NCBI GenBank assembly: GCA_017307855.1
Contig: JAFKGD010000005.1
Coordinates: 222,432 to 286,431 of the forward strand
Direction: 5' to 3'
From: Burkholderiales bacterium
GTDB lineage: Bacteria > Pseudomonadota > Gammaproteobacteria > Burkholderiales > Burkholderiaceae_C
Length of the DNA stretch: 64,000 nt
The position numbers and the translations under genes are program-made. Positions 28,839 to 49,130 of the stretch are shown in pieces. The number at the start of each line of letters is the position of its first letter. The stretch's first letter is position 1. The notes beneath the pieces are model-generated. The model was not told where the DNA came from, made no database searches, and saw nothing but the letters and a program-made list of their open reading frames with translations.

Positions 28839-29570
28839 ATGCCCCGTTCCCGCTCGCCCCTGCCCGACACCGCGCCAGCCCAGTCTGACGGCTGGAGCGA
28901 CGCCGAGATGGCCGCCATGGCCACGCTGCCGGGCACCGGCCCCGAGCAGCGGCTGCGCGAGCAGCGCCAGCGCATCGACGAGCGCATCCGCAAGGCGGCC
29001 ATCGTCGAATTCAGCCAGCACGGACTGCGCGGCGCCTCCACCCAGGACATCGCTGCGCGCGCCGGTCTGACCAAGCCTCAGCTGCATTACTACATCAAGG
29101 GCAAGGAGCGGCTCTACGAGGAACTGCTCGCCTCGGTCGTGCACCGCTGGGTGCAGGACACGTCGTTCGATCACGCCAGCGACGATCCGGCGGCGGTGCT
29201 GGCGAGTTACGTCGAGGACAAGATCCGGACCTCACTCGACGACCCCGAGCTCGCGCGCATCTTCGGCCTGGAGATCCTGTCGGGCGCACCGCATCTGGGC
29301 CCGCACTGGCCGACCGCGTTCGAGGTCACCGGCCGGCTGGCCGCCACGCTGCAACGCTGGATGGACGAAGGCCGCATGCGGCGGTGCAATCCGCACCTGC
29401 TGCTCATGAACATCTGGGCCATGACCAGCCACTACGCGTATTACGCGGTGCAGGTGCGCCAGATGTCGGCCCGCTTCCCCGAGTCGCCCATGGACCGCGA
29501 CACCGTCGTGCGCGAAGTCACCGACCTGGTGCTGGCCGGCTGCGGCCTCGCGCCCCACGACGGCGCCTGA
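28839..29570 (+). CDS. TetR/AcrR family regulator, RutR-like (copy 1)
   Basis: A protein of 243 residues from ATG 28839. After a variable 45-residue N-terminus comes the TetR helix-turn-helix (IRKAAIVEFSQHGLRGASTQ, then AGLTKPQLHYYIKGKERLYE). The C-terminal part (LARIFGLEILSGAPHLG, MNIWAMTSHYAYYAVQV) resembles the E. coli RutR ligand domain, which binds uracil/thymine. It is divergent from glyQ and followed by an operator-like dyad and a binding-protein/oxygenase operon. It is the most diverged of three paralogues in this region. Confidence 0.88.
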   Translation: MPRSRSPLPDTAPAQSDGWSDAEMAAMATLPGTGPEQRLREQRQRIDERIRKAAIVEFSQHGLRGASTQDIAARAGLTKPQLHYYIKGKERLYEELLASVVHRWVQDTSFDHASDDPAAVLASYVEDKIRTSLDDPELARIFGLEILSGAPHLGPHWPTAFEVTGRLAATLQRWMDEGRMRRCNPHLLLMNIWAMTSHYAYYAVQVRQMSARFPESPMDRDTVVREVTDLVLAGCGLAPHDGA

Positions 29571-29659
29571 GGCGCGCGCCACGTCCGGCCGCGGTGCGGC
29601 CATGCACCGTTCTCCCGCTGCCCCTCACCGTGACCGGCCCGCTTGAGGCCCGTCAAGGC

Positions 29660-29675
29660 TGGCACGCTTCATGCG
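29660..29675 (+). promoter_or_regulatory. Predicted sigma-54 promoter, module 1
   Basis: TGGCACG-CTTC-ATGCG: the -24 block is perfect, the -12 block has TGC, and GG and GC are separated by exactly 10 bp as required. It lies directly upstream of the TTGACC/GGTCAA operator and 46 bp before the binding-protein start. Confidence 0.65.
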
Positions 29676-29705
29676 TTTGACCGATCGATCAAATCCTTGG
29701 TCAAA
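29676..29705 (+). promoter_or_regulatory. RutR-like operator, module 1
   Basis: TTTGACC (29676-29682), GATCAAA (29687-29693) and GGTCAAA (29699-29705). The first two form TTGACC-N4-GATCAA, one mismatch from the E. coli RutR consensus TTGACC-N4-GGTCAA; the third half site follows after 5 bp. The site would cover the transcription start of the sigma-54 promoter, fitting repression by a RutR-like TetR protein. Confidence 0.65.
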
Positions 29706-29720
29706 CACAGGAGTCGTTCC

Positions 29721-30713
29721 ATGCCGTTCCCCATCCGTCTCGCCCGTTTTCCGCTGGCCGCTGCGCTGGCGCTGGGCTTCGCCGGCTCCGCGCTGGCACA
29801 GCAGAAATTCACGTTCCTGACCAACTGGTACGCGCAGGCCGAGCACGGCGGCTACTACCACGCGCTGGCCAGTGGTGCGTACAAGGCCGCGGGGCTCGAT
29901 GTGACGATCCGCATGGGCGGGCCGCAGGTCAACACGCTGCAGATGATGGCGGCCGGCCAGGCCGACTGCATCATGGGTTCGTCGGACACGCAGGTGCTCA
30001 AGATCCGCGAGCAGGGCATCCCGGCGGTGACCATCGCCACCATCTTCCAGAAGGATCCGCAGGGTCTCACGGCCAACCCCGACACCAGACGCATCGAGGA
30101 ACTCAAGGGCCGCACCATCCTCATCAGCACCGGCGCGCGCAATACCTACTGGCCCTGGCTCAAGGCCACCTTCGGCTTCACGGAGGATCAGGCCCGCCCC
30201 TACGCCTTCAGCCTCGCGCCTTTCGTGCAGGACAAGTCCATCGCGCTGCAGGGCTATGTGACTTTCGATCCGTACGCGGTGAAATCGCAGACCGGCATCG
30301 ACCCCTCGTTCTTCCTGTTCGCCGACCTGGGCTGGCCGCCCTATGCCAACACCGTGGTCTGCATGGAACAGACGCTCAAGGACAAGCCGCAGATGGTCGC
30401 CGCCTTCCTCAAGGCGTCGCTTGAAGGCTGGAAGAACTACCTGACGGGCGACCGCGCCGCGGCCCATGCGCTGATCAAGAAAGACAACCCGCAGATGAAC
30501 GACGGCCAGCTGGAGTTCGCCGTCAGGACCATGATGGAACGCGGCATGGTCATGGGCGGCGATGCGGCCAAGGCAGGCATCGGCACCATCACGCCCGAGC
30601 GCCTGAAGAAGACCTACGACTTCCTGGTCGGTGCCAAGCTGCTCGACCCGAAGGTGGATCTGGCCGCCAGCTACGACACGCGCTTCATCTCGGCCATCAA
30701 GGTGATGCCGTGA
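29721..30713 (+). CDS. ABC transporter substrate-binding protein, NMT1/THI5-like (copy 1)
   Basis: A protein of 330 residues from ATG 29721 with CAGGAG upstream. It has a Sec signal peptide ending GSALAQ. The mature start FTFLTNWYAQAEHGGYYHAL is the family signature, also seen in HMP-binding ThiY proteins. DCIMGSSDTQ and IFQKDPQG are conserved in all three copies here. Unlike copies 2 and 3 it has no ATPase or permease genes next to it, so it may share a permease with the others. Its stop overlaps the start of the oxygenase gene (GTGA). Confidence 0.9.
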   Translation: MPFPIRLARFPLAAALALGFAGSALAQQKFTFLTNWYAQAEHGGYYHALASGAYKAAGLDVTIRMGGPQVNTLQMMAAGQADCIMGSSDTQVLKIREQGIPAVTIATIFQKDPQGLTANPDTRRIEELKGRTILISTGARNTYWPWLKATFGFTEDQARPYAFSLAPFVQDKSIALQGYVTFDPYAVKSQTGIDPSFFLFADLGWPPYANTVVCMEQTLKDKPQMVAAFLKASLEGWKNYLTGDRAAAHALIKKDNPQMNDGQLEFAVRTMMERGMVMGGDAAKAGIGTITPERLKKTYDFLVGAKLLDPKVDLAASYDTRFISAIKVMP

Positions 30714-31675
30714 CGCGCGCGCCGAGCCTGCCGGTCATCGACCTGTCGCAGAGCCAGGCCGGCCCCGAGACCGAGCACGGCGTGGCACGCGCGGTGGACG
30801 CCGTCTGCCGCGAATCGGGTTTCTTCTACATCACCGGCCACGGCGTGCCCGAGTCGCTGGTGGAGAGCATGTTCGGTTGCGCGCGCCACTTCTTCGCCCA
30901 GCCGGCCGACACCAAGGCGCGCTGGAGCACGAAGCTCTCGCCGATCCGGCGCGGCTGGGATGCCATCGGCCACCAGGCGCTGGACAACGGCAAGCCGGCC
31001 GATCTGCTGGAGGGCTACAACATCGGCCTGGAGTTCGATCCGGCCGATCCGCTGGGCGACCGGCAGCCGCGCCGGGGGCCCAACCAGTGGCCCGACGAGG
31101 GCGCCGCACCCGGCATGCGCGCCACGGCAGAGGCCTACATGGCGGCGCTGGAGCACGCCTCGCGCCGCGTGATGCGGCTCATCGCGATCGGACTGGCGCT
31201 GCCCGGCGACTATTTCGAGCCCTTCATGCGCCGGCCCGTGCCCTCGATGCGGCTGCTTCACTATCCGCCGCATCCGGCCGATGCACAAGCCGGGCAGGCC
31301 GGCGCCGGCGCGCACACCGACTGGGGCGCGCTCACGCTGCTGGCGCAGGACGACGGCGGTGGCCTGCAGGTGCAGGATGCGCAGGGCGACTGGCACGACG
31401 TGCCGCCCGTGCCCGGCAGCTTCGTGGTCAACCTGGGCGATCTGATGTCGCGCTGGACGAACGATGCCTACCGCTCGACCATGCACCGCGTGATCAACAA
31501 CGTGAGCGGACGCGACCGCTACTCGATCCCGTACTTCTTCGACATCGACTTCCACGCGCGCGTGAGCGCGTTGCCCGGCTGCTTCGACGCGGCCCATCCA
31601 CCGCGGTACGCCGAAGTCACCGCCGGCGAACACCACGCCGAGAAGATGCGGCTGGCGCGCCTGGCCTACGGCTGA
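30710..31675 (+). CDS. 2-oxoglutarate/Fe(II) oxygenase, isopenicillin N synthase family
   Basis: A protein of 321 residues from GTG 30710, translationally coupled to the binding protein by a 4-bp overlap. The Fe(II) ligands are visible as AHTDWG (H202, D204) and TMHRV (H259), and the 2-oxoglutarate-binding RxS is RYS (R270, S272). The N-terminal DIOX_N domain shows FFYITGHGVPE. The IPNS superfamily includes thymine 7-hydroxylase of fungi. With a RutR-like regulator and a THI5-like binding protein next to it, hydroxylation of a pyrimidine-type substrate is a reasonable guess, not proven. Confidence 0.9.
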   Translation: MTRAPSLPVIDLSQSQAGPETEHGVARAVDAVCRESGFFYITGHGVPESLVESMFGCARHFFAQPADTKARWSTKLSPIRRGWDAIGHQALDNGKPADLLEGYNIGLEFDPADPLGDRQPRRGPNQWPDEGAAPGMRATAEAYMAALEHASRRVMRLIAIGLALPGDYFEPFMRRPVPSMRLLHYPPHPADAQAGQAGAGAHTDWGALTLLAQDDGGGLQVQDAQGDWHDVPPVPGSFVVNLGDLMSRWTNDAYRSTMHRVINNVSGRDRYSIPYFFDIDFHARVSALPGCFDAAHPPRYAEVTAGEHHAEKMRLARLAYG

Positions 31676-31685
31676 TCGCCGCCCC

Positions 31686-32690
31686 TCAGCGCCCGAGCCG
31701 GGCGCGCAGAGCCGGATCGAGCGACGCGAGGAACGCCTCGACCGCGTCGGTGTACGCGCCGGGCAGCCCCAGTTGCGCGTTGATCTCGCCGTGCGTCATC
31801 GGCTGGCCCAGCACCTCGGCCCGCACGCCCAGGCTGCCGGCGTGGTCCGCGAAGCGCTGCGCGCCGTCGCAGGGGCGGTCGCGTCGCTGCGTGGAGCACA
31901 CGGCCAGCAACGGCGCGGCACCGCGCACCAGTTGCTGCTGCGGCGAGGCGGCCCGCCAGAACGCCGGGTCGCTGCCGAAGGCGGCGTCGTAGAACGGCAG
32001 GTGGCGCCGCTCCATCACCGGGGCGACATCGAGCAGGGCGCTGTCCAGCGCCACCGTGCCCAGCCACGGCCGGGCGCCCTGCGCCAGGGCGCGCTGCGGG
32101 TTGGCATTGAGAAGCGCCACCAGATGCGCACCGGCCGAATGCCCCATCAGCACGAAGCGCCCGGCATCGCCGCCCCAGCCGGCGGCAGCCTTCTGCGCGA
32201 AGGCCAGTGCGCGCGCCACGTCGTCGGCCTGCACCAGCGGATCGGCGCCGGGCAGCAGGCGGTAGTTGGTGGACACCACGATGAATCCGCGCGACACCCA
32301 GCGATCGACCTTGTTGCCGACCACGCCACGCGCGGTCTTGCTGCCGGTGCGCCAGGCGCCCCCGTGCACCATGAAGATGACCGGCGCGCCCTGCGCCTGG
32401 GCGGGGATGTAGGCATCGAGCTTCTGCAGCGCATCGGCGCCGTAGGCCTGATCGGCGACCCGACGCGCACCCGGCGGCAGTGGCACGCGCACCGACGGCC
32501 CGGCGCCTTCGGTTTCGATCTCGCTGCCGGCTCCGGCGGCGGCCTGCGCGCGGCGCTCGGCCAGCCGCTCGCGCAGCGGCCCCTGCGCTGCGGCGCTGAA
32601 CACCAGGCCCAGGGCCAGCAACGCGAGAGATGCGCGGCGCCAGGCGCGGCCGCAAACGGTGGAGGAGGAAAAGAGGCCCGGAAACTGCAT
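31686..32690 (-). CDS. Secreted alpha/beta hydrolase (esterase-like)
   Basis: A protein of 334 residues from ATG 32690 with AGGAG upstream and a signal peptide ending FSAAAQ. The fold is shown by the oxyanion motif HGGAW, the nucleophile GHSAGAH and a C-terminal histidine in PMTHGEIN. It resembles BD-FAE/carboxylesterase-type hydrolases active in the periplasm. It is convergent with the oxygenase (10 bp) and divergent from TetR copy 2, so it is the only minus-strand gene in the 20-kb region. A role in releasing the transported substrate from an ester is conceivable. Confidence 0.85.
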   Translation of the reverse strand: MQFPGLFSSSTVCGRAWRRASLALLALGLVFSAAAQGPLRERLAERRAQAAAGAGSEIETEGAGPSVRVPLPPGARRVADQAYGADALQKLDAYIPAQAQGAPVIFMVHGGAWRTGSKTARGVVGNKVDRWVSRGFIVVSTNYRLLPGADPLVQADDVARALAFAQKAAAGWGGDAGRFVLMGHSAGAHLVALLNANPQRALAQGARPWLGTVALDSALLDVAPVMERRHLPFYDAAFGSDPAFWRAASPQQQLVRGAAPLLAVCSTQRRDRPCDGAQRFADHAGSLGVRAEVLGQPMTHGEINAQLGLPGAYTDAVEAFLASLDPALRARLGR

Positions 32691-32843
32691 GGACGGCTCC
32701 TGTCGCGACCGGAATCGATCGCCTGATGTGCCCCGCAGTGTAGTGACGCCCCGCTGCGCGCGCCATGGCATCGCGCCGGCCACGGCAGACTCCAGTACCA
32801 TGCCCTTCGGCCCTTTCAACCTTCCCGCCCGTTCCGTTTCGCC

Positions 32844-33545
32844 ATGAAAGTGGATGCCGCCCCCACCCTCGCACCGCCGCTTGCAACGCCGCTGGCGCAA
32901 GACATGCCCGCGCCCGACGGCCCGCTCTCGCGCACCCGGCCGGGGCGCGAACGCATCATGGCGGCGATCCGCGAGGCGGCCATCGCCGAGTTCAGCCTGC
33001 ATGGTCTCAAGGGCACCTCCACCCAGGCCATCGCCGAGCGCGCCGGCCTCACCAAGCCCCAGCTGCACTACTACATCAGCGGCAAGGACGAGCTCTACGA
33101 AGAGCTGCTCATGCAGGTGCTGCACGACTGGAAGGTGGTGTTTTCCTTCGAGGCCTCCAACGACCCCGCCCGGGTGCTGGCCACCTACATCCGCGCCAAG
33201 CTCGACCACGCATTCGACAACCCCGAGATCTCGCGCATCTTCACGCGCGAGGTGCTCGACGGCGGCCGCAACCTCGAGCGCTACTGGCCCAACGCACGCG
33301 CGTGGTCGCAGAAGAAGGTCGACATCATCAACGGCTGGATGGCGCGCGGGCTCATCCCGCCGATGGACGCGCGCCTGCTGCTCATGCACATCTGGGCGCT
33401 CACGCAGCACTACGCCGACTTCGCGCTGCAGGTGCGCGTGATGCATGGCCTGGCCCCCGAGGCACCGCTGCCGCGCGAGACCATCACGCGCGAAGTCACC
33501 ACCTTCATCCTGCGCGGCTGCGGCCTCACGCCACCGGCCGACTGA
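32844..33545 (+). CDS. TetR/AcrR family regulator, RutR-like (copy 2)
   Basis: A 233-residue protein. The helix-turn-helix is KGTSTQAIAERAGLTKPQLH. The ligand domain ends with ALTQHYADFALQVRVM, almost the same as the RutR segment in E. coli (ASTQHYADFAVQV). It is close to copy 3 (41290-41976). It is followed by a perfect sigma-54 promoter and a CCTGACCA/TGGTCAGG dyad before the next operon. Confidence 0.9.
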   Translation: MKVDAAPTLAPPLATPLAQDMPAPDGPLSRTRPGRERIMAAIREAAIAEFSLHGLKGTSTQAIAERAGLTKPQLHYYISGKDELYEELLMQVLHDWKVVFSFEASNDPARVLATYIRAKLDHAFDNPEISRIFTREVLDGGRNLERYWPNARAWSQKKVDIINGWMARGLIPPMDARLLLMHIWALTQHYADFALQVRVMHGLAPEAPLPRETITREVTTFILRGCGLTPPAD

Positions 33546-33590
33546 GCGCACCGCGCGGCAGCACGCACAGCGGCACGCGCCGCACACCAC

Positions 33591-33606
33591 TGGCACACCT
33601 CTTGCT
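33591..33606 (+). promoter_or_regulatory. Predicted sigma-54 promoter, module 2
   Basis: TGGCACA-CCTC-TTGCT agrees with the consensus TGGCACR-N4-TTGCW at every defined position, with GG-N10-GC spacing. It precedes the operator at 33610-33640 and the reductase gene. A NtrC-type activator is expected, as for the E. coli rut operon. Confidence 0.75.
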
Positions 33607-33609
33607 GAA

Positions 33610-33640
33610 CCTGACCAGTTGCTCTGATTGAGTGGTCAGG
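33610..33640 (+). promoter_or_regulatory. RutR-like operator, module 2
   Basis: CCTGACCA (33610-33617) and TGGTCAGG (33633-33640) form a perfect 8-bp dyad with a 15-bp spacer, starting four bases after the -12 box. TGACC and GGTCA are 22 bp apart start to start, as in module 3. Confidence 0.6.
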
Positions 33641-33684
33641 GCCCTGGACAACGCTGCACCAGCCCGGTGCAGCCACCGAGGGGA

Positions 33685-34278
33685 ATGCCAGTGCGTGTGC
33701 TCGTCGTCTATTGCCATCCGGTGGAAACCAGCTTCCACGCGGCACTGCACCAGGAAGTGGTGGAGAAGCTGCGCGCCGCCGGCCACGAGGTCGACGACTG
33801 CGACCTGTACGCCGAAGGCTTCAACCCCGTGATGTCGCGCGAGGAACGGCTGGGCTACCACGACGTGCCCGCCAACCAGGCCCCGCTGGCCGAGCACGTG
33901 CGCCGCCTGCAGTGGGCCGAGGCGATGGTGTTCTGCTTCCCGACGTGGTGCTTCGGCCTGCCGGCCATGCTCAAGGGCTACTTCGACCGGCTCTTCATGC
34001 CGGGCGTGGCGTTCGACATCAGTGACCCGGCCAACGTCAAGCCGATGCTGGGGCACCTGAAGCGCATCTCGGCCGTGGTGACCTACGGCCGCCCGCGCTG
34101 GATGGCGATGTACATGGGCGATCCGCCGCGCAAGATCATCACGCGGTACATGAAGCGCATGACGGGCAACACCGCCCGCGTGGACTACCACGCCCACTAC
34201 CACATGAACATCGCGACCGAGTCGCAGCTCACCCGCTTCAAGCAGCGCGTGGGTGCCGCGATGTCGGACTTCGCCTGA
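33685..34278 (+). CDS. Flavodoxin-fold NAD(P)H-dependent oxidoreductase (quinone reductase-like)
   Basis: A protein of 197 residues from ATG 33685; GTG 33691 is better spaced from GAGGGGA (33678-33684) and may be the real start. The fold is NAD(P)H dehydrogenase (quinone)/MdaB-like: VRVLVVYCHPVETSF with the FMN phosphate loop, VFCFPTWCFGLPAMLKGYFD, and VVTYGRP. It is the first gene of the second operon and has no counterpart in the third. It may reduce a quinone or flavin for another enzyme of the pathway. Confidence 0.87.
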   Translation: MPVRVLVVYCHPVETSFHAALHQEVVEKLRAAGHEVDDCDLYAEGFNPVMSREERLGYHDVPANQAPLAEHVRRLQWAEAMVFCFPTWCFGLPAMLKGYFDRLFMPGVAFDISDPANVKPMLGHLKRISAVVTYGRPRWMAMYMGDPPRKIITRYMKRMTGNTARVDYHAHYHMNIATESQLTRFKQRVGAAMSDFA

Positions 34279-34304
34279 GCCCCGCCGCACCGGCCACCGC
34301 CACC

Positions 34305-35603
34305 ATGTCCGGACTGCGCGCATCGCCCGCCGCCCCGCAGCAACTGCTGAACGCGCGCCTGCCCGCCTGGCTGCTGGGCGATGCCTGGCCGCGACACGAA
34401 GGCGCACCCGCGCTCGCCCGCGTGCAGATCGAAGGCGGCCGCGTCGTCTCGGTGGTGCCCATGGATGCCGCGCCCTGCACTGCGCCCGCCTGGGACGTGG
34501 GCGGCACCCTGCTGCTGCCGGCGTTCGTCGATGCCCACGTGCACCTCGACAAGGCGTTCACCCTCTCGCGCATCACCGGCGTGCAGCCCGGCCTGCTGGG
34601 TGCGATCGAGGCCTCGTCGCGCGACGTGCCCACGTGGACGCCCGAGGACATCCGCACGCGCGCCACGCGCGGACTGCAATGGGCGCACGAATGCGGTACC
34701 ACGCGCCTGCGCACGCACGTCAACTGGTCGGAGATCGGCCCGCTGCCCATGGCCTGGCCCGTGCTGGCCGAGCTGTCGCGCCAGTGGGGCGGGCGCGTGT
34801 TGCTGGAGCTGGTGAGCCTGACCAAGCTGATCAGCTTCGCCGACGCCGCGAACGCACGCACCGTGGCGGCGCAGGTCAAGGCCACGGGCCCGCACGCGCT
34901 GCTGGGCGGCTTCGTGCATTCGTCCAACTGGGATCGCCCCTCGCTCGCGCATCTGCTCGACGCGGCGGCCGCGCAAGACCTCGACGTCGATCTCCACACC
35001 GACGAGGAACTCAATCCCGAAGCGCACGGCCTGCTGGCGGTGGCCGAACTCTCGCGCGCCATGGGCTTCGCGGGCCGCATCGTCTGCGGCCACGTGTGTG
35101 CGCTGGCGGCCATGCCCGAATCGCAGGCCCTCGCCGTGCTCGATGCCGTGGCGCGTGCGCCCATCACGCTGGTTTCGCTGCCCATCACCAACCTGCTGCT
35201 GCAGGACGCCGTCACCGGCCGCACACCGCGCCAGCGCGGCATCACGCTGGTGAAAGAGGCCCGCGCACGCGGCATTCCCCTGCTATTCGCCAGCGACAAC
35301 GTGCAGGACCCGTTCTGCCCCGTCGGCAGCTTCGATCCGCTCGAAGCCTTCGCCGCCGGCGTGCTGGCCGCGCAGCTCGACGCGCCGTTCGACCGCTGGT
35401 CCGACACGCTCTGCCGTCACGACTTCCTGGCACGCGGCAGGCCCGGTCCCGCATCGCTGGCCGGCCAGCCCGCCGACCTGCTGCTCTTCCCCGATGCCGA
35501 CGCCACCGGATTCCCGTCACGCACCGCGCGCCGCGTGGTGCTGCGCGCCGGCGTGGCGGACAGCGCACCGCCCGCGGCCTGGCTCGCACCGGCCACCGCC
35601 TGA
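34305..35603 (+). CDS. Amidohydrolase family protein, cytosine deaminase-like (copy 1)
   Basis: A 432-residue TIM-barrel amidohydrolase of the CodA type. Metal ligands: VDAHVHLDKAF (H78, H80), the His in CGHVCALAA (H263) and D331 in ASDNVQDPF; DLHTDEE (H231, E234/E235) supplies the proton shuttle. CodA-like enzymes deaminate or hydrolyse ring amidines such as cytosine, isocytosine and creatinine. It lies 26 bp after the reductase and 27 bp before the creatininase-like gene. Confidence 0.9.
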   Translation: MSGLRASPAAPQQLLNARLPAWLLGDAWPRHEGAPALARVQIEGGRVVSVVPMDAAPCTAPAWDVGGTLLLPAFVDAHVHLDKAFTLSRITGVQPGLLGAIEASSRDVPTWTPEDIRTRATRGLQWAHECGTTRLRTHVNWSEIGPLPMAWPVLAELSRQWGGRVLLELVSLTKLISFADAANARTVAAQVKATGPHALLGGFVHSSNWDRPSLAHLLDAAAAQDLDVDLHTDEELNPEAHGLLAVAELSRAMGFAGRIVCGHVCALAAMPESQALAVLDAVARAPITLVSLPITNLLLQDAVTGRTPRQRGITLVKEARARGIPLLFASDNVQDPFCPVGSFDPLEAFAAGVLAAQLDAPFDRWSDTLCRHDFLARGRPGPASLAGQPADLLLFPDADATGFPSRTARRVVLRAGVADSAPPAAWLAPATA

Positions 35604-35630
35604 TCCCGCATTCACAAGGACACCTCTTCC

Positions 35631-36488
35631 ATGCTGCACGGCTACATTCCCCCGCACCGCTTCCTGCCCTACCTGAGCTGGCCCGAGATCGCGGCGCTGC
35701 CCGACCGCGAGAACACGGTGATCGTGCTGCCCTGCGGCGCCATCGAACAGCACGGCCCGCACCTGCCCTGCAGCGTCGACACGGTGATCTCCTCGGGCGT
35801 CATCGGCGAAGCGCTCAAGCGGCTGCCGGCCGCGGTGCGCGCGTTCGCGCTGCCGCCCATCAGCTACGGCAAATCGGAAGAGCACCTGCACTTCCCCGGC
35901 ACCATGACGTTGACGGGCACCACGCTGCTATCCACCGTGATCGAGATCGGCGAATCGGTGTACCGCTCGGGCTTCCGCAAGCTGGTGTTCGCCAACGGCC
36001 ATGGCGGTCAGCCGCAGGTGCTGGAGATGGCCGCGCGCGAACTGCGCCTGCGCCACGGCGACTTCGTCATCGTTCCCTTCGGCGTCTCGCGCCTGCCCAA
36101 CGCATCGGGCAGGCAGGTGAGCGAGAAGGAGAAGAGGCTGTCGATGCACGCCGGCCATTCCGAGACCGCGCTGATGCTGGCCCTGGCCCCCGACACGGTG
36201 CACATGGACAAGGCCGAGCCCTGGTACCCGCCCGAATTCCCGATCAAGCTGCTCTCGCCCGACGGCCGCCCGGCCTGCGCCTGGACGGCGCGCGACTTCG
36301 GCCCCAGCGGCGTGATCGGCGACCCCACCTCCGCCACGAAGGAGCAGGGCGAAGAAATCCTCAGCACGCTGGCCGACAGCTGGGTGCAGGCCCTCACCGA
36401 GCTGTATGCCCTGCGCTGGATCGTGCGCGAGGAAGCCACGTGGGAGCGCGGCCAGTACACCGGCCACATCCAGCAATCCATGCCCTGA
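35631..36488 (+). CDS. Creatininase family protein (copy 1)
   Basis: A 285-residue protein with the creatininase metal motifs: AIEQHGPHLP (E39, H41), CSVDT (D50), NGHGGQ (H124) and HAGHSETA. The family includes creatinine amidohydrolase, FAPy deformylase (ArfB) and MftE, all metal-dependent C-N hydrolases on small amides. It directly follows the amidohydrolase, suggesting two successive hydrolyses. Copy 2 is at 43472-44326. Confidence 0.92.
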   Translation: MLHGYIPPHRFLPYLSWPEIAALPDRENTVIVLPCGAIEQHGPHLPCSVDTVISSGVIGEALKRLPAAVRAFALPPISYGKSEEHLHFPGTMTLTGTTLLSTVIEIGESVYRSGFRKLVFANGHGGQPQVLEMAARELRLRHGDFVIVPFGVSRLPNASGRQVSEKEKRLSMHAGHSETALMLALAPDTVHMDKAEPWYPPEFPIKLLSPDGRPACAWTARDFGPSGVIGDPTSATKEQGEEILSTLADSWVQALTELYALRWIVREEATWERGQYTGHIQQSMP

Positions 36489-37582: not shown

Positions 37583-37600
37583 GGCACGGGGGCTGTCCAC

Positions 37601-41289: not shown

Positions 41290-41976
41290 ATGACCGCCCG
41301 CCCGAACGACCGCCCCTCCGACGACACGCCACCCGACAACGGCCGCGCCACGCGTGGCCCGCGGCCGGAGCGCCAGAGTCGCAAGCGCGTGATGGCCGTC
41401 ATCCGGGAGGCGGCCATCGCCGAATTCAGCCTGCACGGCTTGAAGGGCACCTCCACCCAGGCCATCGCCGAACGCGCCGGCCTCACCAAGCCCCAGCTGC
41501 ACTACTACATCAGCGGCAAGGAGGCGTTCTACGCCGAACTCCTCCAGTCGGTGATGATGGCCTGGAAGCTGGAGTTCGCGCCCGCCCATCTCACGCGGCC
41601 GGCCGACATCCTGGCCAACTACGTGCGCGCCAAGCTCGACCACGCGTTCGACCACCCCGAGGTCTCGCGCATCTTCACGCGCGAAATCCTGGACGGCGGC
41701 CACAACCTCGGCCACTACTGGCCCAATGCGCGCGCCTGGGTGCAGGGCGAGGTGGACGTCATCAACGGCTGGATCGCGCGCGGCCTCATGCCGCCGATGA
41801 ATGCGCACCTGCTGCTCATGAACATCTGGGCCATGACGCAGCACCACGCGGATTTCGCGCTGCAGATGCGCGAAATCTGCGGTGACGGCACCGGCGCGCC
41901 GCCGTTCGACCGCGCCACCGTGGTGCACGAGCTCACCACCTTTGTGCTTCGCGGGTGCGGGTTGTCGCATTCCTGA
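41290..41976 (+). CDS. TetR/AcrR family regulator, RutR-like (copy 3)
   Basis: A 228-residue protein, close to copy 2 (32844-33545): shared KGTSTQAIAERAGLTKPQLH and SRIFTREILDGGHNL; the ligand domain has MTQHHADFALQMREI. It is followed within 66 bp by the third TTGACC/GGTCAA operator and the second amidohydrolase operon. A long foldback repeat lies upstream. Confidence 0.9.
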   Translation: MTARPNDRPSDDTPPDNGRATRGPRPERQSRKRVMAVIREAAIAEFSLHGLKGTSTQAIAERAGLTKPQLHYYISGKEAFYAELLQSVMMAWKLEFAPAHLTRPADILANYVRAKLDHAFDHPEVSRIFTREILDGGHNLGHYWPNARAWVQGEVDVINGWIARGLMPPMNAHLLLMNIWAMTQHHADFALQMREICGDGTGAPPFDRATVVHELTTFVLRGCGLSHS

Positions 41977-42023
41977 CACGCTCCGCTGACAGCGGCCGCT
42001 TTTAAGGGGTTTCCCTTTGGGCT

Positions 42024-43427
42024 TTGGCCCCTGCGTTCACTAAACTTGACCGATCGATCAGATTAATTGGTCAAGTTTTGAACTGGCTCAATCCTCCTGC
42101 CCCGCCGCCGTGCGATGACAGCGCGCCTGCCGCCGTCCGCGGCGCGCGCCTGCCGGCATGGTTGCTGCCGCAGGACTGGCCGCGCGATCCAGCCCTCCGC
42201 AACGCGCCAGCGCTTGCCCGCATCGAACTGGCCGACGGCCGCATCGCGCGCGTGAAGCCCGAGCCGCCCGGCGCCGTGGAAGCTCCCGACACCGTACCGG
42301 CATGGAACGCCCATGGCGCACCCGTGCTGCCCGGTCTCGTGGAAGCCCACACCCATCTCGACAAAGCCTTCACGCTCGGCCGCATGGGCACCGTCCGCCC
42401 CGGCCTGCTGGGCGCGATCGACGCGCTGATCGAGGACCGCGCACGCTGGACCGACGCCGACATCCGCGCCCGCGCCACGCGCGGCCTGCAGTGGGCCTGG
42501 CAAGCCGGCACCACGCACCTTCGCACGCACGTGGACTGGTTCAACGGCGCGATGCCACCACCCGCCTGGGGCGTGCTGTCCGCGCTGGCCCATGAATGGC
42601 GTGGCCGGCTGGGCGTGGAGCTGGCCGCGCTGGCGCCGCTGCGCTTCTTCGCCGACGCCGCGCAGGCCGGCGAGCTGGCACGCCAGGCCGCATCGACCGG
42701 CCCGCACGCGCGGCTGGGCGGCTTCGTCCACACCAGCAACTGGGACGCCGGGGCGCTGCGCCACCTCGTCATGGCCGCGGCCGAAGCCGGCATCGACCTC
42801 GACCTGCACGTGGACGAAGAACTCGAACCCGGCGCACAGGGCCTGGCCACGATCGCGCGACTGGCGCGCGAGACCGGCTTCACCGGCCGCATCGTCTGCG
42901 GCCACGTCTGCGCGCTGGCGGCCATGCCCGAATCGCAGGCCCTCGCCGTGCTCGACGCCGTGGCGCGCGCGCCCATCACCCTGGTCTCGCTGCCCGTCAC
43001 CAACCTGCTGTTGCAGGACGCCGTCACCCACCGCACGCCGCGCCAGCGCGGCATCACGCTGGTGAAGGAAGCCCGCGCACGCGGCATCCCGCTGCTGTTC
43101 GCCAGCGACAACGTGCAGGATCCGTTCTGCCGCACCGGCAGCCTGGACCCGGTGGAGACGATGGCCATCGCCACCTGGGCCGCACAACTGGACGCTCCGT
43201 TCGACACGTGGTCCGACAGCATCTGCCGCGGCGACTGGCTGCAGCGCCAGCCGGCGGCGCGTCCCACGCTCGAAGGCGCGCCAGCCGACCTGGTGATCTT
43301 TCCCGATGCCGACGCCACCGGCTGGCCTTCGCGCACCGCGCGCCGGCAGGTGCTGCGCGCCGGCCGGTGGCTGCAGACCGCCGTTCCCGCAGCCGCCGAC
43401 ACAGCGGATGCGCCCGCGCCGGCCTGA
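42024..43427 (+). CDS. Amidohydrolase family protein, cytosine deaminase-like (copy 2), start uncertain
   Basis: Up to 467 residues. Metal and catalytic motifs are all present: VEAHTHLDKAF, RTHVDW, DLHVDEE, CGHVCALAA and ASDNVQDPF. Similarity to copy 1 begins only at ARLPAWLL, about 40 residues in. The frame has no ATG before that; the choices are TTG 42024, which would put the operator 42042-42078 inside the gene, or TTG 42078, which has no Shine-Dalgarno. The reductase gene that precedes copy 1 is missing here, so a deletion may have removed the original start. Confidence 0.85.
   Translation: MAPAFTKLDRSIRLIGQVLNWLNPPAPPPCDDSAPAAVRGARLPAWLLPQDWPRDPALRNAPALARIELADGRIARVKPEPPGAVEAPDTVPAWNAHGAPVLPGLVEAHTHLDKAFTLGRMGTVRPGLLGAIDALIEDRARWTDADIRARATRGLQWAWQAGTTHLRTHVDWFNGAMPPPAWGVLSALAHEWRGRLGVELAALAPLRFFADAAQAGELARQAASTGPHARLGGFVHTSNWDAGALRHLVMAAAEAGIDLDLHVDEELEPGAQGLATIARLARETGFTGRIVCGHVCALAAMPESQALAVLDAVARAPITLVSLPVTNLLLQDAVTHRTPRQRGITLVKEARARGIPLLFASDNVQDPFCRTGSLDPVETMAIATWAAQLDAPFDTWSDSICRGDWLQRQPAARPTLEGAPADLVIFPDADATGWPSRTARRQVLRAGRWLQTAVPAAADTADAPAPA
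42042..42078 (+). promoter_or_regulatory. RutR-like operator, module 3
   Basis: AAACTTGACC (42042-42051) and GGTCAAGTTT (42069-42078) form a perfect 10-bp dyad. Inside, TTGACC-GATC-GATCAG matches the start of the module 1 site. No good sigma-54 element is seen upstream, unlike modules 1 and 2. Confidence 0.65.
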
Positions 43428-43471
43428 CAACACGCGTCGCCCCACGACATCCCTTTCCAGAGACCTACTCC

Positions 43472-44326
43472 ATGCTGCATGGTTACTGCCCCCCGCACCG
43501 CTTCCTGCCCTATTTGAGCTGGACCGAGATCGCCGCCCTGCCCGACCGCGAGAACACCGTGATCGTGCTGCCCGTGGGCGCCACCGAGCAGCACGGCCCG
43601 CACCTGCCCTGCAGCGTGGACACCGCCATCGCCGCCGGCGTGATGGGCGAGGCGCTCAAGCGCCTGCCGGCCAGCGTGCGCGCCTTCGGCCTGCCGCCGA
43701 TCACCTACGGCAAGTCGGAAGAGCACCTGCACTTCCCCGGCACGTTCACGCTCACCGGTCCCACGCTGCTGGCGACCATGATCGAGCTGGGCGAGTCGGT
43801 CTACCGCTCGGGCTTCCGCAAGCTGGTGTTCGCCAACGGCCACGGCGGCCAGCCTCAGGTGCTGGAGATGGCCGCGCGCGAACTGCGCCTGCGCCATGGC
43901 GATTTCGTGATCGTTCCGTACGGCGTCTCGCGCGTGCCCAACTGCTCGGGCCAGTTCGTGAGCGAGCAGGAGAAGAAGCTGTCGATGCACGCCGGCCATT
44001 CCGAGACCGCGCTGCTGCTGGCGCTGGCGCCCGAAACCGTGCACATGGAACACGCGAAGCCGTACTTTCCGCCGCCGTTCCCGGTCAAGACGCTGTCGGC
44101 CGACGGCCGCCCCAGCTGCGCCTGGGTGGCGCGCGATTTCGGGCCCAGCGGCGTGATCGGCGACCCCACGGGCGCCACGCGCGAGCAGGGCCTGCAGATT
44201 CTCGACACGCTGGCCGACAGCTGGGTCAAGGCGCTGACCGAACTACACGAGCTGCGCTGGATCGAGCGTGACGAATCCACCTGGGAGCGTGGCCAGTACA
44301 CCGGCCACATCCAGCAGTCCATCTGA
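43472..44326 (+). CDS. Creatininase family protein (copy 2)
   Basis: A protein of 284 residues from ATG 43472. Metal motifs as in copy 1: ATEQHGPHLP, CSVDT, NGHGGQ and HAGHSETA. The two copies are highly similar along their whole length (shared GKSEEHLHFPGT and YRSGFRKLVFANGHGG), diverging mainly in AKPYFPPPFPVK versus AEPWYPPEFPIK near the presumed substrate pocket. It lies 44 bp after amidohydrolase copy 2. Confidence 0.92.
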   Translation: MLHGYCPPHRFLPYLSWTEIAALPDRENTVIVLPVGATEQHGPHLPCSVDTAIAAGVMGEALKRLPASVRAFGLPPITYGKSEEHLHFPGTFTLTGPTLLATMIELGESVYRSGFRKLVFANGHGGQPQVLEMAARELRLRHGDFVIVPYGVSRVPNCSGQFVSEQEKKLSMHAGHSETALLLALAPETVHMEHAKPYFPPPFPVKTLSADGRPSCAWVARDFGPSGVIGDPTGATREQGLQILDTLADSWVKALTELHELRWIERDESTWERGQYTGHIQQSI

Positions 44327-44381
44327 CCCGTTTCCTTTTTCCCCTCCAACCTTTCCGTCCACCCCTCAGAAAGACCCTGCC

Positions 44382-45365
44382 ATGAAACTCCGTTCCATCG
44401 TTCGTGCGTGCGGCATCGCCGCCATCGCCTCGCTCGGCCTGGCCGCGCAGGCCCAGGAAAAGATCACCTTCATGACCAACTGGTACGCGCAGGCCGAGCA
44501 CGGCGGCTACTACCAGGCCGTGGCGCAGGGCATCTACCAGAAGGCCGGGCTGGACGTGACGATCAAGATGGGCGGCCCGCAGGTCAACATCATCCAGATC
44601 ATGGCGGCCGGCCAGGCCGACTGCATCATGGGCGCGACCGACACGCAGATGATGGTGGCGCGCGGCAACGGCCTGCCGATCGTCAACGTGGCGGCGATCT
44701 TCCAGAAGGATCCGCAGGTGCTGATCGCCCACGAGGACGTGAAGTCTTTCGAGGACATGAAGGGCAAGACCATCCTGATCGCGCCCACCGCCATGCGCGG
44801 CATGTGGTCGTGGCTCAAGGGCAAGTACGGCTACACCGATTCGCAGGCCCGCCCCTACACCTACAACATCCAGCCCTTCGTGGCCGACAAGAACATCGTG
44901 CAGATGGGCTTCCTGTCGTCCGAGCCGTTCGCCATCCAGAAGGCCGGCGTGAAGGCCAACACCTTCCTGCTGGCCGACCAGGGCTACCCTCCGTACGCCA
45001 ACCTGATCTCGTGCATGGAGAAGACGGTGAAGGAACGCGAGAAGACCATCGCCGCCTTCGTGAAAGCCACGGCCGAGGGCTACAGGAGCTACCTGAACGA
45101 TCCGGCGCCGGCCAACGCGCTGATCAAGAAGGACAACCCCAACATGACCGATGACCAGCTGAACTACGGCATCACCAAGCTCAAGGAGATGGGGATCATC
45201 ACCAGTGGCGATGCGCAGAAGCAGGGCATCGGCATCATGACCCGCGAGCGCCTGCAGAAGACGCACGCCTTCCTGGTCGAGAACCAGATGATCGACCCGG
45301 CCAAGGTCAACCTCGAGCAGGCCTACCGGCTCGATCTGGTGCAGGGCGCCAAGGTCCTGCCGTAA
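44382..45365 (+). CDS. ABC transporter substrate-binding protein, NMT1/THI5-like (copy 3)
   Basis: A protein of 327 residues from ATG 44382. The signal peptide ends LAAQAQ; the mature part starts ITFMTNWYAQAEHGGYYQAV. It is very similar to copy 2. Differences such as APTAMRGMWSWLKG versus TTAVQGYWAWLKA lie in a segment that contacts ligand in THI5-like proteins, so the two may bind related but different compounds (inference). Confidence 0.92.
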   Translation: MKLRSIVRACGIAAIASLGLAAQAQEKITFMTNWYAQAEHGGYYQAVAQGIYQKAGLDVTIKMGGPQVNIIQIMAAGQADCIMGATDTQMMVARGNGLPIVNVAAIFQKDPQVLIAHEDVKSFEDMKGKTILIAPTAMRGMWSWLKGKYGYTDSQARPYTYNIQPFVADKNIVQMGFLSSEPFAIQKAGVKANTFLLADQGYPPYANLISCMEKTVKEREKTIAAFVKATAEGYRSYLNDPAPANALIKKDNPNMTDDQLNYGITKLKEMGIITSGDAQKQGIGIMTRERLQKTHAFLVENQMIDPAKVNLEQAYRLDLVQGAKVLP

Positions 45366-45480
45366 TCCACGGGCGGCCACCGGCCGCCACGCGCGCTGCG
45401 CCAGCGCGGGCCTTTCATGCAGGACATGAAGCCCGTGCCGGGCCCGGCTCGCCCATCCCCTCCATTCCGAGCGCTCCACG

Positions 45481-46302
45481 ATGAACTCCAGCCTCTCGCC
45501 CGCCGCCGCGCCGCCCCTGGCCGCGATCGACATCCATCAGGTCCAGAAGACCTACCCCAACGGCACCGTGGCCCTGCAGCCGGTGGACCTCACGGTGCGC
45601 GAAGGCGAGTTCGTCACCTTGCTCGGTCCTTCGGGCTGCGGCAAGAGCACGCTGCTCAAGATGATCGCCGGCCTGCTGGAGCCCACCAGCGGCAGCCTCA
45701 AGCTGTGGGGCCGCGGCGTCGACCAGCTGGAGGCCGGCGGCCACAAGCTGTCGTTCGTGTTCCAGGCGCCCACGCTGATGCCCTGGGCCAACGTGCAGAC
45801 CAATGTGCGCCTTCCGCTCGACCTGGCCGGCGTGCCGCGTGCCGAGGCCGACGCCCGCGTGGCCGATGCGCTCGCGCTGGTGGGCCTGTCGAAGTTCGCC
45901 AAGGCCCTGCCGCGTGCGCTCTCGGGCGGCATGCAGATGCGCGTGTCGATCGCGCGCGGCCTGGTGGTCGAGCCCACGTTGCTGCTGATGGACGAGCCCT
46001 TCGGCGCGCTCGATGAGATCACGCGCCACAAGCTCGATGCCGACCTGCTGGAGCTGTGGCAGAAGAAGAAGCTCACCGTCGTCTTCGTGACGCACTCGAT
46101 CCACGAGTCGGTGTTCCTGTCGAACCGCGTGGTGATGATGGCCGCGCGCCCCGGCCGCATCGTGGAGGAATTCCCGATCGACGAGCCGTATCCGCGCTCG
46201 CCCGACTTCATGGTCTCCACCCAATTCAGCCGCCACGCCAGGCAGCTGCAGGACAGCCTGCTGCGCGCCAGCCGCGACACCACCGAGGATTCCCACGCAT
46301 GA
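45481..46302 (+). CDS. ABC transporter ATP-binding protein (copy 2)
   Basis: A 273-residue ATPase with Walker A GPSGCGKST, Q-loop FVFQAPTLMPW, signature LSGGMQMR, Walker B LLLMDEPFGALD and VTHSIHE. The 115-bp gap before it (45366-45480) holds no gene. The region around the signature motif is nearly base-for-base the same as in copy 1 despite divergence at both ends, suggesting gene conversion. It overlaps the permease by 4 bp. Confidence 0.95.
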   Translation: MNSSLSPAAAPPLAAIDIHQVQKTYPNGTVALQPVDLTVREGEFVTLLGPSGCGKSTLLKMIAGLLEPTSGSLKLWGRGVDQLEAGGHKLSFVFQAPTLMPWANVQTNVRLPLDLAGVPRAEADARVADALALVGLSKFAKALPRALSGGMQMRVSIARGLVVEPTLLLMDEPFGALDEITRHKLDADLLELWQKKKLTVVFVTHSIHESVFLSNRVVMMAARPGRIVEEFPIDEPYPRSPDFMVSTQFSRHARQLQDSLLRASRDTTEDSHA

Positions 46303-47144
46303 CCGCCACCGCCCTGACTTCGACTCCGCCGCGCACGGTGCCCGTGCGCACGCCGCTCCTGCGCCAGCCGCGCGTGCAGCGTGTGCTGTTCCCCCTGATG
46401 GTGGCCGTGGTGCTGATCGGCCTGTGGGAAGGCCTGGTGGTCGGCCTGGAGCTGCCGCCCTACCTCATCCCCTCGCCCACGCTGATGATGAAGACGCTGT
46501 TCGCCGACTGGGGCATCCTGATGAACTCGCTGTTCATCACGATGAAGATCACGGTGCTGTCGTTCGTGGTGGCCGTGGTGGTGGGCGTGCTGATCTCGTT
46601 CCTGTTCGTGCAGAGCCGGATCATCGAGACGGCGTTATTCCCCTATGCCGTGCTGCTGCAGGTCACGCCCATCGTGGCCATCGCGCCGCTGATCATCATC
46701 TGGGTGAAGGAGCCCACGGCTTCGCTCGTGGTGTGCGCGGCGCTCGTCGCGCTGTTCCCCATCATCTCCAACACCACGCTGGGGCTGCGCAGCATCGATC
46801 CCGACCTGCAGAGCTACTTCAAGATGAACCGGGCCACGCGCAGCCAGATGCTCTGGCGCCTGCGCATCCCGAGCGCGCTGCCTTACTTCTTCGGCGGCCT
46901 GCGCATTTCGTCGGGCCTGGCGTTGATCGGCGCCGTGGTGGCCGAATTCGTGGCCGGCACGGGCGGCACCAACACGGGCCTGGCGTACCAGATCCTCATG
47001 GCCGGCTACCAGCTCGACATCCCGCGCATGTTCGCCGCGCTGCTGCTGATCTCGCTGGCCGGCGTGTTCCTGTTCGTGCTGATGGCCTGGTTGACGAAGA
47101 TCAGCCTCGGTTCGTGGCACGCGAGCGAAATTTCGCAGGACTGA
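46299..47144 (+). CDS. ABC transporter permease (copy 2)
   Basis: A protein of 281 residues from ATG 46299 (ATGA overlap with the ATPase). Same family as copy 1 but with a shorter N-terminal extension. Conserved loop FKMNRATRSQMLWRLRIPSA. About 190 bp in the centre (around 46580-46795) are nearly identical to copy 1. Confidence 0.94.
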   Translation: MTATALTSTPPRTVPVRTPLLRQPRVQRVLFPLMVAVVLIGLWEGLVVGLELPPYLIPSPTLMMKTLFADWGILMNSLFITMKITVLSFVVAVVVGVLISFLFVQSRIIETALFPYAVLLQVTPIVAIAPLIIIWVKEPTASLVVCAALVALFPIISNTTLGLRSIDPDLQSYFKMNRATRSQMLWRLRIPSALPYFFGGLRISSGLALIGAVVAEFVAGTGGTNTGLAYQILMAGYQLDIPRMFAALLLISLAGVFLFVLMAWLTKISLGSWHASEISQD

Positions 47145-47164
47145 TCCATTTCAGGGATTCCGCC

Positions 47165-48523
47165 ATGAACGCACCCGCTTCCAACATCGAACAACTCCAC
47201 CTGGAACTGCCCGACCTCGACTGGATCACCGAGCCCAACAAGGTGGCCCGGCTGTCGCAGGATTTCTCGTGGTTCAGCCCCGTGCTCAAGCGCACGCTCG
47301 CGGGCAAGCAGGGCGACATCGTCTGCAAGCCCCGCACGGAAGACGAGATCCGCCGCGTGGCCGCCGCCTGTGCGCGCCGCAACATCCCGCTCACCGTGCG
47401 CGGCAGCGGCACCGGCAACTACGGCCAGTCGACACCCCTGCACGGCGGCGTGATCCTGGACATGAGCGGCTACAACGCCTTCCTCTGGGCCCGGCCCGGC
47501 GCCGCGCGCGCGCAGGCCGGCATCCGGCTGGGCGACTTCGACACCCAGGCCCGCACCATGGGCTGGGAACTGCGTGCGATCCCCTCCACCTACAAGACGG
47601 CCTCGCTGGGAGGCCTGTTCAGCGGCGGCTTCGGCGGCGCCGGCTCGATCAACTATGGCCCCATCGGCGCTACCGGCAACATCCTGGCCGTGCGCGCGAT
47701 GAGCGTGGAGGCCGAGCCCCAGGTGGTCGAGCTGCGTGGCCCCGACGCGCTGCTGATGCATCACCTCTGGGGTACCAACGGCCTGGTGCTCGAAGTGGAA
47801 ATGGCGCTGGCGCCCGCACATCCCTGGATGGAGATGATCGTCACCTTCGACGACTTCGACCGCGCGCTCGAGTTCGGCAACGTGCTGGCGCATTCGCCAG
47901 GCGTGGTGAAGAAGGACATCTGCCTGCTGGCCGACCCCGTGCCTGCCTACTTGACGACGCTGGCCGAGCACCTCACGCCCGGCTGCCACGCGGCGCTGCT
48001 GATCGTGGCCGAGTTCTCCGAAGACGCGGCGCTTCAGGTGATCGAGCGCTTCGGTGGCCGCGTGACCTACCGCGCCAGCGCCGAGCAGGTGACGGCCACG
48101 CGCCGCACGCTGCTCGAGTACATGTGGAACCACACCACGCTCAACGCGCTCAAGGTCGACAAGACGCTGACCTACCTGCAGACCACCTTCACACCCGGCA
48201 AGCACCTCGACCAGGTGCGCCTGGTGCGCCAGCTGTTCGGCGACGAAGTGCTGATGCATGTCGAGTTCCTGCGCAGCATGGACGGCTTCACGACTTGCAC
48301 GTCGCTTCCGATCGTGCGCTTCTCGACCGAGGAGCGGCTACGCGAGATCATCCGGATCTTCCGCGACAACGGCATCCGCGTGAACGACCCGCACACCTAC
48401 ATCATCGAGGAAGGCAAGGCCGGCGGCGACCTGCCGCAGGCGGTGGTCGATCTCAAGCGCAAACTCGATCCTCACGGCCTGCTCAATCCCGGCAAAATGC
48501 GCGCTTGGGCGGTGCCCGGCTGA
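47165..48523 (+). CDS. FAD-binding oxidoreductase, PCMH/GlcD type (copy 2)
   Basis: A protein of 452 residues from ATG 47165, the same length as copy 1. FAD domain motifs: TVRGSGTGNYGQSTPLHGG, ASLGGLFSGGFGGAG and SINYGPIGATGN; C-terminal LDPHGLLNPGKMRAW. It lies 20 bp after the permease, so it is in the transport operon. The tight link with transport implies that it acts on the imported compound or its first product. Confidence 0.9.
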   Translation: MNAPASNIEQLHLELPDLDWITEPNKVARLSQDFSWFSPVLKRTLAGKQGDIVCKPRTEDEIRRVAAACARRNIPLTVRGSGTGNYGQSTPLHGGVILDMSGYNAFLWARPGAARAQAGIRLGDFDTQARTMGWELRAIPSTYKTASLGGLFSGGFGGAGSINYGPIGATGNILAVRAMSVEAEPQVVELRGPDALLMHHLWGTNGLVLEVEMALAPAHPWMEMIVTFDDFDRALEFGNVLAHSPGVVKKDICLLADPVPAYLTTLAEHLTPGCHAALLIVAEFSEDAALQVIERFGGRVTYRASAEQVTATRRTLLEYMWNHTTLNALKVDKTLTYLQTTFTPGKHLDQVRLVRQLFGDEVLMHVEFLRSMDGFTTCTSLPIVRFSTEERLREIIRIFRDNGIRVNDPHTYIIEEGKAGGDLPQAVVDLKRKLDPHGLLNPGKMRAWAVPG

Positions 48524-48561
48524 TCGTTCGCCGGGCCACGGCGGCCCCTCATGCGGGTTCA

Positions 48562-48644
48562 CCTTCAGCCGTATAACAAGGCGGGGAGCCGAAGACAGTG
48601 CTCTGGCACGGCGAGGCGAACCAACGCAGTTAGACGGTTGAAGG
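48562..48644. repeat. 83-bp imperfect palindrome resembling an integron attC site
   Basis: Arms CCTTCAGCCGTATAAC (48562-48577) and GTTAGACGGTTGAAGG (48629-48644) match at 14 of 16 positions. GTTAGAC fits the attC core GTTRRRY and GTATAAC nearly fits the inverse core RYYYAAC, 65 bp end to end, with GTGC/GCAC in the middle. The inner L boxes pair poorly. It lies at the right end of the catabolic region, between the oxidase and the RidA-like gene. No integrase is seen. It could simply be a terminator-like hairpin. Confidence 0.4.
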
Positions 48645-48671
48645 CGATTCCGCATCAAAGGAAGTACACAC

Positions 48672-49130
48672 ATGAGCATGGGCAAGCCGATGGCCAACTA
48701 CGCCGCCGCGAAACGCGTGGGCGATTTCGTCTTCATGAGTGGCGTGGTAGCGGTCAACCCCGCCACGCGCAGCGCCGTGCAGAGCTACGACGACATCCCC
48801 GAGGCCGCGCGCGAGGCGCTGCGGCCGCTGGGCTATGTCACCGGGCAGATGACGGTGGACATCTTCGAGGCGCCCATCGTGGCGCAGAGCTGGTTCGTGC
48901 TGGAACGCATCCGGCAGATCGCGGCCGAGCACGGCGGCACCATGGCCGACGTGGTGAAGCTGGTGCAGTACTTCCGCCAGCTCTCGCACTACGCGCCATA
49001 CAACCGCGTGCGCGGCCTGTTCTATCCGGGCGAGCCGCCGGTTTCCACCGTGGTCGAAGTCTCGCGCTTCATGCCGGGCGACGAGGTGCTGATCGAGGTG
49101 GAAGCCACCATGTACCTGCCGGCGCGCTGA
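48672..49130 (+). CDS. RidA family protein lacking the catalytic arginine
   Basis: A protein of 152 residues from ATG 48672 with AAGGAAG upstream. It has the RidA chorismate mutase-like fold (VGDFVFMSGVVAVNPAT, MADVVKLVQYFRQL) and the C-terminal glutamate in IEVEATMY. The segment that normally reads PxRS/T has PPVSTVVEVSR, so the arginine needed for imine hydrolysis is replaced by valine. It may bind or act on a different intermediate. It is the last + strand gene of the catabolic region and ends 12 bp before the convergent lnt. RutC of the rut pathway belongs to the same superfamily. Confidence 0.85.
   Translation: MSMGKPMANYAAAKRVGDFVFMSGVVAVNPATRSAVQSYDDIPEAAREALRPLGYVTGQMTVDIFEAPIVAQSWFVLERIRQIAAEHGGTMADVVKLVQYFRQLSHYAPYNRVRGLFYPGEPPVSTVVEVSRFMPGDEVLIEVEATMYLPAR

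Follow-up and report, generated by a model that had tools for sequence, protein, structure and literature searches.

Within the stretch of DNA analysed here (the window: 64,000 nucleotides of contig JAFKGD010000005.1 from a Burkholderiales bacterium), a gene cluster occupies positions 28839-49130 on the plus strand and falls into three parts, modules A, B and C, each headed by a gene for a TetR regulator with a YcdC/RutR-type ligand domain. In module A the regulator is followed by an NMT1/THI5-like solute-binding protein and a 2-oxoglutarate (2OG)/Fe(II) oxygenase. Module B continues from its regulator with a flavodoxin-fold reductase, a CodA-like amidohydrolase, a creatininase-like hydrolase, a binding protein, the ATPase and permease of an ATP-binding cassette (ABC) transporter and a flavin adenine dinucleotide (FAD) enzyme; module C runs from its regulator directly to the CodA-like protein, then follows the same order and ends with a RidA-family protein (Table 1). 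We propose that this region is probably a pteridine (pterin-type) uptake and catabolic locus.

A first-pass annotation of the cluster was right in its gene list and probably wrong in its emphasis on pyrimidines. Two of the three RutR-like regulators that it listed match the YcdC/RutR-type C-terminal domain directly in Pfam; the third, that of module B, had no Pfam scan of its own and is placed by its 52% and 65% identity to the other two and by a TIGR03613 match at its genome position. Pfam matches also establish the three NMT1/THI5 binding proteins, two ABC ATPases, two permeases, two Amidohydro_3 proteins, the 2OG-Fe(II) oxygenase, the Flavodoxin_2 protein and RidA. One creatininase-like protein and one FAD oxidase (FAD_binding_4) were recognized in the same way, their counterparts being 83% identical (and matched by PF02633 in the genome) and 68% identical, respectively. 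Gene frames were settled by frame-wise G+C profiles together with homology; five of the 20 plus-strand open reading frames (ORFs) first scanned lacked a Pfam match, and these proved to be four wrong frames and one spurious ORF.

Table 1. Features of the cluster, with window coordinates and the basis of each assignment
Feature	Coordinates	Strand	Basis
Module A TetR regulator, RutR-like C-terminal domain	28839..29570	+	Pfam TetR_N, TetR_C_3; RutR model 122.7 bits, cut-off 368
Dyad TGACC-N16-GGTCA, ahead of module A binding-protein gene	29678..29703	strand-less	motif search
Module A NMT1/THI5-like solute-binding protein	29721..30713	+	Pfam NMT1; ATG start; 53% identity to module B counterpart
2OG/Fe(II) oxygenase, isopenicillin-N-synthase-like	30710..31675	+	Pfam DIOX_N + 2OG-FeII_Oxy
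Esterase/lipase-like protein	31686..32690	-	BD-FAE / Abhydrolase_3
Module B TetR regulator	32844..33545	+	65% identity to module C TetR; TIGR03613 141 bits at genome position
Dyad TGACC-N17-GGTCA (module B)	33612..33638	strand-less	motif search
Flavodoxin-fold NAD(P)H:quinone-reductase-like protein	33685..34278	+	Pfam Flavodoxin_2; NQO-type PDB matches
Module B CodA-like amidohydrolase, probable deaminase, not cytosine-specific	34305..35603	+	Amidohydro_3; PRK07583 304.9 of 403; residues
Module B creatininase-like hydrolase	35631..36488	+	Creatininase Pfam 3e-75; under creatininase and MftE cut-offs
Module B NMT1/THI5-like binding protein	36581..37582	+	Pfam; PDB 4nmy 1.1e-8, 3ix1 5.3e-8
Module B ABC ATPase	37601..38416	+	ABC_tran
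Module B ABC permease	38413..39342	+	BPD_transp_1
Module B FAD enzyme, relative of folate-catabolism flavin oxygenase 6v42	39421..40779	+	
Module C TetR regulator	41290..41976	+	TetR_N, TetR_C_3
Dyad TGACC-N17-GGTCA (module C), lengthened by flanks AAACTTGACC/GGTCAAGTTT	42047..42073	strand-less	motif search
Module C CodA-like amidohydrolase, start provisional	42081..43427	+	Amidohydro_3; 64% identity to module B
Module C creatininase-like hydrolase	43472..44326	+	83% identity to module B; PF02633 238.5 bits; reading frame
Module C NMT1/THI5-like binding protein	44382..45365	+	NMT1 4.4e-32; ATG start
Module C ABC ATPase	45481..46302	+	ABC_tran
Module C ABC permease	46299..47144	+	BPD_transp_1
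Module C FAD enzyme	47165..48523	+	68% identity to module B; reading frame
RidA-family protein	48672..49130	+	Ribonuc_L-PSP; RutC 39.6 bits, cut-off 169.1

As the first-pass annotation had described, each TetR gene is followed by a dyad, which lies 66-108 bases downstream and has the form TGACC-N16/17-GGTCA; with spacers of 8-24 allowed, this motif occurs three times in the window, with N16 in module A and N17 in modules B and C. A degenerate 27-bp version with up to two mismatches recovered only the module B and C sites in the whole 4.99-Mb genome, and its reversed control recovered none. At other loci the exact N17 dyad follows 34 of 51 homologous TetR genes, set against a chance level of 2.45%, the share of 2000 length-matched random segments that carry even the looser N8-24 form. 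The TetR_C_3 regulators, the TTGACC/GGTCAA half-sites and the RidA protein recall the Rut system; however, the half-sites, though equal to those of RutR (site TTGACCANNTGGTCAA), stand much wider apart, and RutA and RutB were not recognized in the cluster. The short-spacer palindrome of RutR gave four window matches at up to three mismatches, against an expectation of 0.95, and a single one of the four fell in the cluster; the wide-spaced form is the real signal. The regulators score 122.9, 126.9 and 141.3 bits with the RutR model TIGR03613, all under its 368-bit cut-off. The module C dyad also bears on the start of the adjoining CodA-like gene, as the first TTG of that ORF (42024) precedes the dyad and the tabulated start is merely an in-frame codon shortly past it.

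A co-occurrence check, proposed with the first-pass annotation, found the operon, its gene order largely preserved, in other genomes (Variovorax, Hydrogenophaga, Polaromonas, Acidovorax, Ramlibacter and Xenophilus); records from Klebsiella, Rahnella, Pantoea, Rhizobium and Agrobacterium contain related sets. Of 300 genomes of the order, seven encode the FAD enzyme (E up to 1e-60), the window's own among them; 140 plasmid records carry a relative, and a viral-contig search returned none. From the best 80 of at least 541 relatives on genome contigs, four plasmid regions and 11 fetched regions we assembled 95 loci; besides the FAD enzyme, which served as the query (95), these hold the binding protein (86), ATPase (81), creatininase-like (72), permease (70), CodA-like (59), TetR (51), flavodoxin (43), RidA (22) and 2OG (16) families. 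These counts are lower bounds, as some genes are fused or lost in gene calling and several loci stop at contig ends, and near-duplicate loci (e.g. L019/L097 and L056/L059) make them overstate independent events. In 34 loci among L032-L076, mostly from Variovorax, the operon is followed by homologues of lnt (34) and corC (32), as in the window, and the chromosomal position therefore looks old. We conclude that the locus is real, conserved and co-regulated.

Between modules B and C there are seven gene pairs with 64-83% identity, one of them formed by the regulators. We rejected a duplication confined to this genome, as the two modules are not mutual closest relatives in either of two trees, both built by a quick method without bootstrap and read from part of the output. 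Module C clusters with four Hydrogenophaga sequences in the FAD tree (Shimodaira-Hasegawa-like approximate likelihood ratio test 99) and B falls just outside, all within a seven-row group (96); C joins Hydrogenophaga in the binding-protein tree as well, where B joins Pseudacidovorax and Xenophilus azovorans (93). The two modules may instead stem from an older duplication or from transfer. A further, distant set lies in the same genome (L029, G000:C9:196001-216000), with relatives of the FAD enzyme (38%), CodA-like protein (37%), binding protein (39%), ATPase and permease, and shared neighbours suggest that a Xenophilus azovorans locus (L071) is arranged like it.

One lead to pterins comes from the FAD enzyme, whose closest solved relative, PDB 6v42, is titled "folate catabolism" (the title as seen for that entry). 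The window protein shares the fold of the 6v42 family and full-length similarity with it, well above other FAD_binding_4 enzymes, and its structural model reached a predicted local distance difference test score of 92.6 with a 40-sequence alignment and 34.7 without one. Rhizobium clusters hold further relatives of this 6v42/6v43 flavin oxygenase; these differ from the window in having regulators annotated as LysR and a single module, as against TetR regulators and two FAD-bearing modules. The second lead is an isoxanthopterin-type deaminase (PRK12393; 2paj is an isoxanthopterin / pterin-6-carboxylate deaminase of this type), which recurrently accompanies this transporter and the FAD enzyme in other genomes; the two linked deaminases that were scanned pass its 543-bit cut-off.

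The two hydrolases look like working enzymes for other substrates than their namesakes, since conserved positions are kept and specificity positions are changed. Length-filtered alignments covered 33 of 61 CodA-like proteins (28 dropped) and 53 of 71 creatininase-like proteins from the loci, plus the two window proteins in each case. All 35 CodA-like sequences, window copies included, keep the metal and acid-base positions H61, H63, H214, E217, H246 and D313, and in all 35 the positions Q156, D314 and W319, which recognize cytosine in CodA, are replaced by P/K/R, N and F, respectively. The module B protein falls under the cut-off of PRK07583 (304.9 of 403 bits) and of the dihydropyrimidinase model TIGR02033 (18.5 bits). 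The creatininase-like proteins belong to the creatininase/MftE Pfam family and keep positions 34, 36, 45, 120 and 178 in at least 54 of 55 sequences; however, positions 122 and 174, which have roles in creatininase, differ in all 55, position 177 falls in a gap, and the module B protein scores under both curated cut-offs (106.3 bits against 235 for TIGR04448). The 2OG enzyme has its best PDB match in 6jyv (4.7e-65), and its homologues adjoin the binding protein at some other loci. In seven loci (L036, L051, L054, L093, L099, L110 and L112) a PDR/VanB-type reductase takes the place of the flavodoxin-fold gene, which suggests that the electron donors are exchangeable; in eight further loci the PDR/VanB-type family is represented by an ORF of 100 residues, in most cases next to the flavodoxin gene.

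We consider the substrate quite likely to belong to the pteridine class. The binding proteins and the two ABC importers would take up a pterin or lumazine that originates from folate or from other pterins, folate itself being a possible but rather doubtful natural source, as its link to the locus, as against that of free pterins, is weak. The 2OG enzyme and the FAD oxygenase may oxidize the ring or the side chain of the pterin, possibly with electrons from the flavodoxin-fold reductase, and the CodA-like metalloenzyme would strip the 2-amino group, being replaced or joined in other lineages by the isoxanthopterin-type deaminase. The creatininase-like metalloenzyme might then hydrolyse an amide in the dione ring so formed, a ring-opening step on which we are evenly divided. 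RidA could clear an enamine or imine, and the ureido nitrogen would leave as urea or ammonia. Release of urea is consistent with a UreD-type urease accessory family near the operon in 12 of the 95 loci (L080, L082, L083, L085, L086, L087, L090, L091, L092, L096, L101 and L108; one representative domain-scanned) and with an annotated urea amidolyase in R. etli. Each module would answer to its own RutR-like repressor, which would sit on the TTGACC-N16/17-GGTCAA-type operator until a pathway compound releases it. More tentatively, we suggest that the genes make up a complete pterin-degradation route undescribed in print, of which alpha-, beta- and gammaproteobacteria have related gene sets. In this route, uptake by a dedicated ABC transporter would be combined with oxygenation by the 2OG and flavin enzymes, deamination of the CodA type and opening of the lumazine ring by a creatininase-family enzyme, all under the control of three repressors that derive from RutR and use a wide-spaced operator.

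Several points weigh against the pteridine interpretation, which is founded on sequence and models. The link to 6v42 consists of the entry title and 40% identity. There is no isoxanthopterin-type deaminase in the window, and none in the genome passes the PRK12393 cut-off (best 394 bits), so that deamination would fall to the CodA-like protein; seven of 15 deaminase regions in other genomes lack a binding-protein relative at 50% identity or more (one has a 24% match, and some lie on short contigs). W154 of the creatininase-like protein is kept in only 16 of 55 homologues, and no carboxypeptidase or p-aminobenzoate gene was recognized among the cluster genes. The binding-protein family was located at 42 places, and 18 of those without known deaminase, FAD or CodA relatives were fetched; 16 of these have transporter genes at most, one (L189) has a Rieske gene, and one (L182) has a creatininase-like and a Rieske gene in addition. 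Finally, the closest solved relatives of the module B binding protein are distant and of a pyrimidine-binding kind, and the solved structures fairly close to the 2OG enzyme include thymine dioxygenase (5.8e-44), which oxidizes a ring methyl group.

These last two points, together with the RutR-like regulators, their half-sites and the CodA fold, speak for the first-pass proposal of a pyrimidine route (uracil, thymine, barbiturate or hydroxymethylpyrimidine). The binding proteins, with their ATPase and permease, do resemble ThiXYZ/THI5, but similarity to solved members is weak (best E 1.1e-8) and no thiamin gene was recognized among the scanned window proteins. The same proposal held that neither RutA/RutB nor dihydropyrimidinase is present, which is so for the cluster but not for the genome: a genome-wide search met RutA above its cut-off at a single place, C12:109648 (696 bits), with a closer RutR relative about 3 kb away (304 bits, itself under the 368-bit cut-off), and two dihydropyrimidinase-family genes over cut-off (604 and 497 bits) both on contig C2, all of them outside the window. 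Because these genes lie elsewhere, the cluster regulators score low as RutR and the cytosine-recognition residues are changed while the metal and acid-base positions persist, we consider a pyrimidine substrate unlikely; the recurrent pterin-type deaminase argues in the same direction. What stands of the earlier interpretation is a conserved, co-regulated uptake and N-heterocycle-attacking set distinct from the Rut and reductive pyrimidine pathways.

Oxidized purines or guanine-like bicyclics (8-oxoguanine, urate or xanthine-type rings) are chemically near pterins, and the linked deaminase family lies near 8-oxoguanine deaminase (PRK08203, 390 bits, cut-off 532). Urea-handling genes near some loci and a CDA-type deaminase family, domain-scanned in one representative and found near the operon in 12 of the 95 loci (L080, L082, L083, L086, L087, L089, L090, L092, L094, L101, L107 and L108), would also fit. 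Such substrates nonetheless seem quite improbable, as both scanned deaminases pass the PRK12393 cut-off and not that of the 8-oxoguanine enzyme, and the closest solved relative of the FAD enzyme points to folate. That the substrate is some other N-heterocycle (creatinine, hydantoin, triazine or a plant product) and the pteridine leads mere family resemblance, as the breadth of all the enzyme families, an AtzE-type gene over cut-off and a biuret-hydrolase/RutB-like gene under both cut-offs in L182, and amidase, allophanate-hydrolase and isochorismatase genes in R. etli might suggest, is very unlikely given the uniformly altered creatininase positions and two separate family links that point alike to pterins.

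The cluster is bounded by glyQ (27829-28734, minus strand, divergent) and lnt (49143-50684, minus strand). The esterase/lipase-like gene between modules A and B, convergent with the 2OG gene, was absent from the first-pass gene list and has no homologue among the 95 loci (E 1e-10, coverage 40%). Further along, at 52259-55104, a 660-residue ORF with a hydroxyphenylpyruvate-dioxygenase part from residue 297 is followed by a biopterin-dependent aromatic amino acid hydroxylase, a pterin-using enzyme. At six other loci (L031, L034, L070, L072, L077 and L078) a second binding protein has one or two Rieske (VanA-type) oxygenase genes behind it, an arrangement that in L031, L034, L072 and L078 includes the isoxanthopterin-type deaminase.

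Neither creatininase nor pterin occurs in the accessible part of a paper on riboflavin catabolism (PMC12746152), and a creatininase-family formamidase acts in riboflavin synthesis, according to the accessible part of another (PMC9478397). No paper on this gene set or on 6v42 was found in the open-licence literature, although one may be in print elsewhere; the earlier remark that the combination was not recognized as a described pathway holds to that extent, save that the 6v42 title ties the FAD family to folate catabolism.

Bacterial pteridine breakdown is known from old biochemistry, and isoxanthopterin is reportedly broken down in Alcaligenes faecalis. To our knowledge, however, the process is largely without genes, those that break the pterin ring of folate being hardly documented; what was already known is a solved structure linked to folate catabolism for one enzyme family, that of the FAD enzyme. 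If the pteridine interpretation is true, the locus would supply genes for this process, and as a conserved set with named candidate enzymes, found also on Rhizobium, Pantoea and Klebsiella plasmid records, it can be tested. It would also correct the annotations "cytosine deaminase", "creatininase" and "nitrate/sulfonate transporter".

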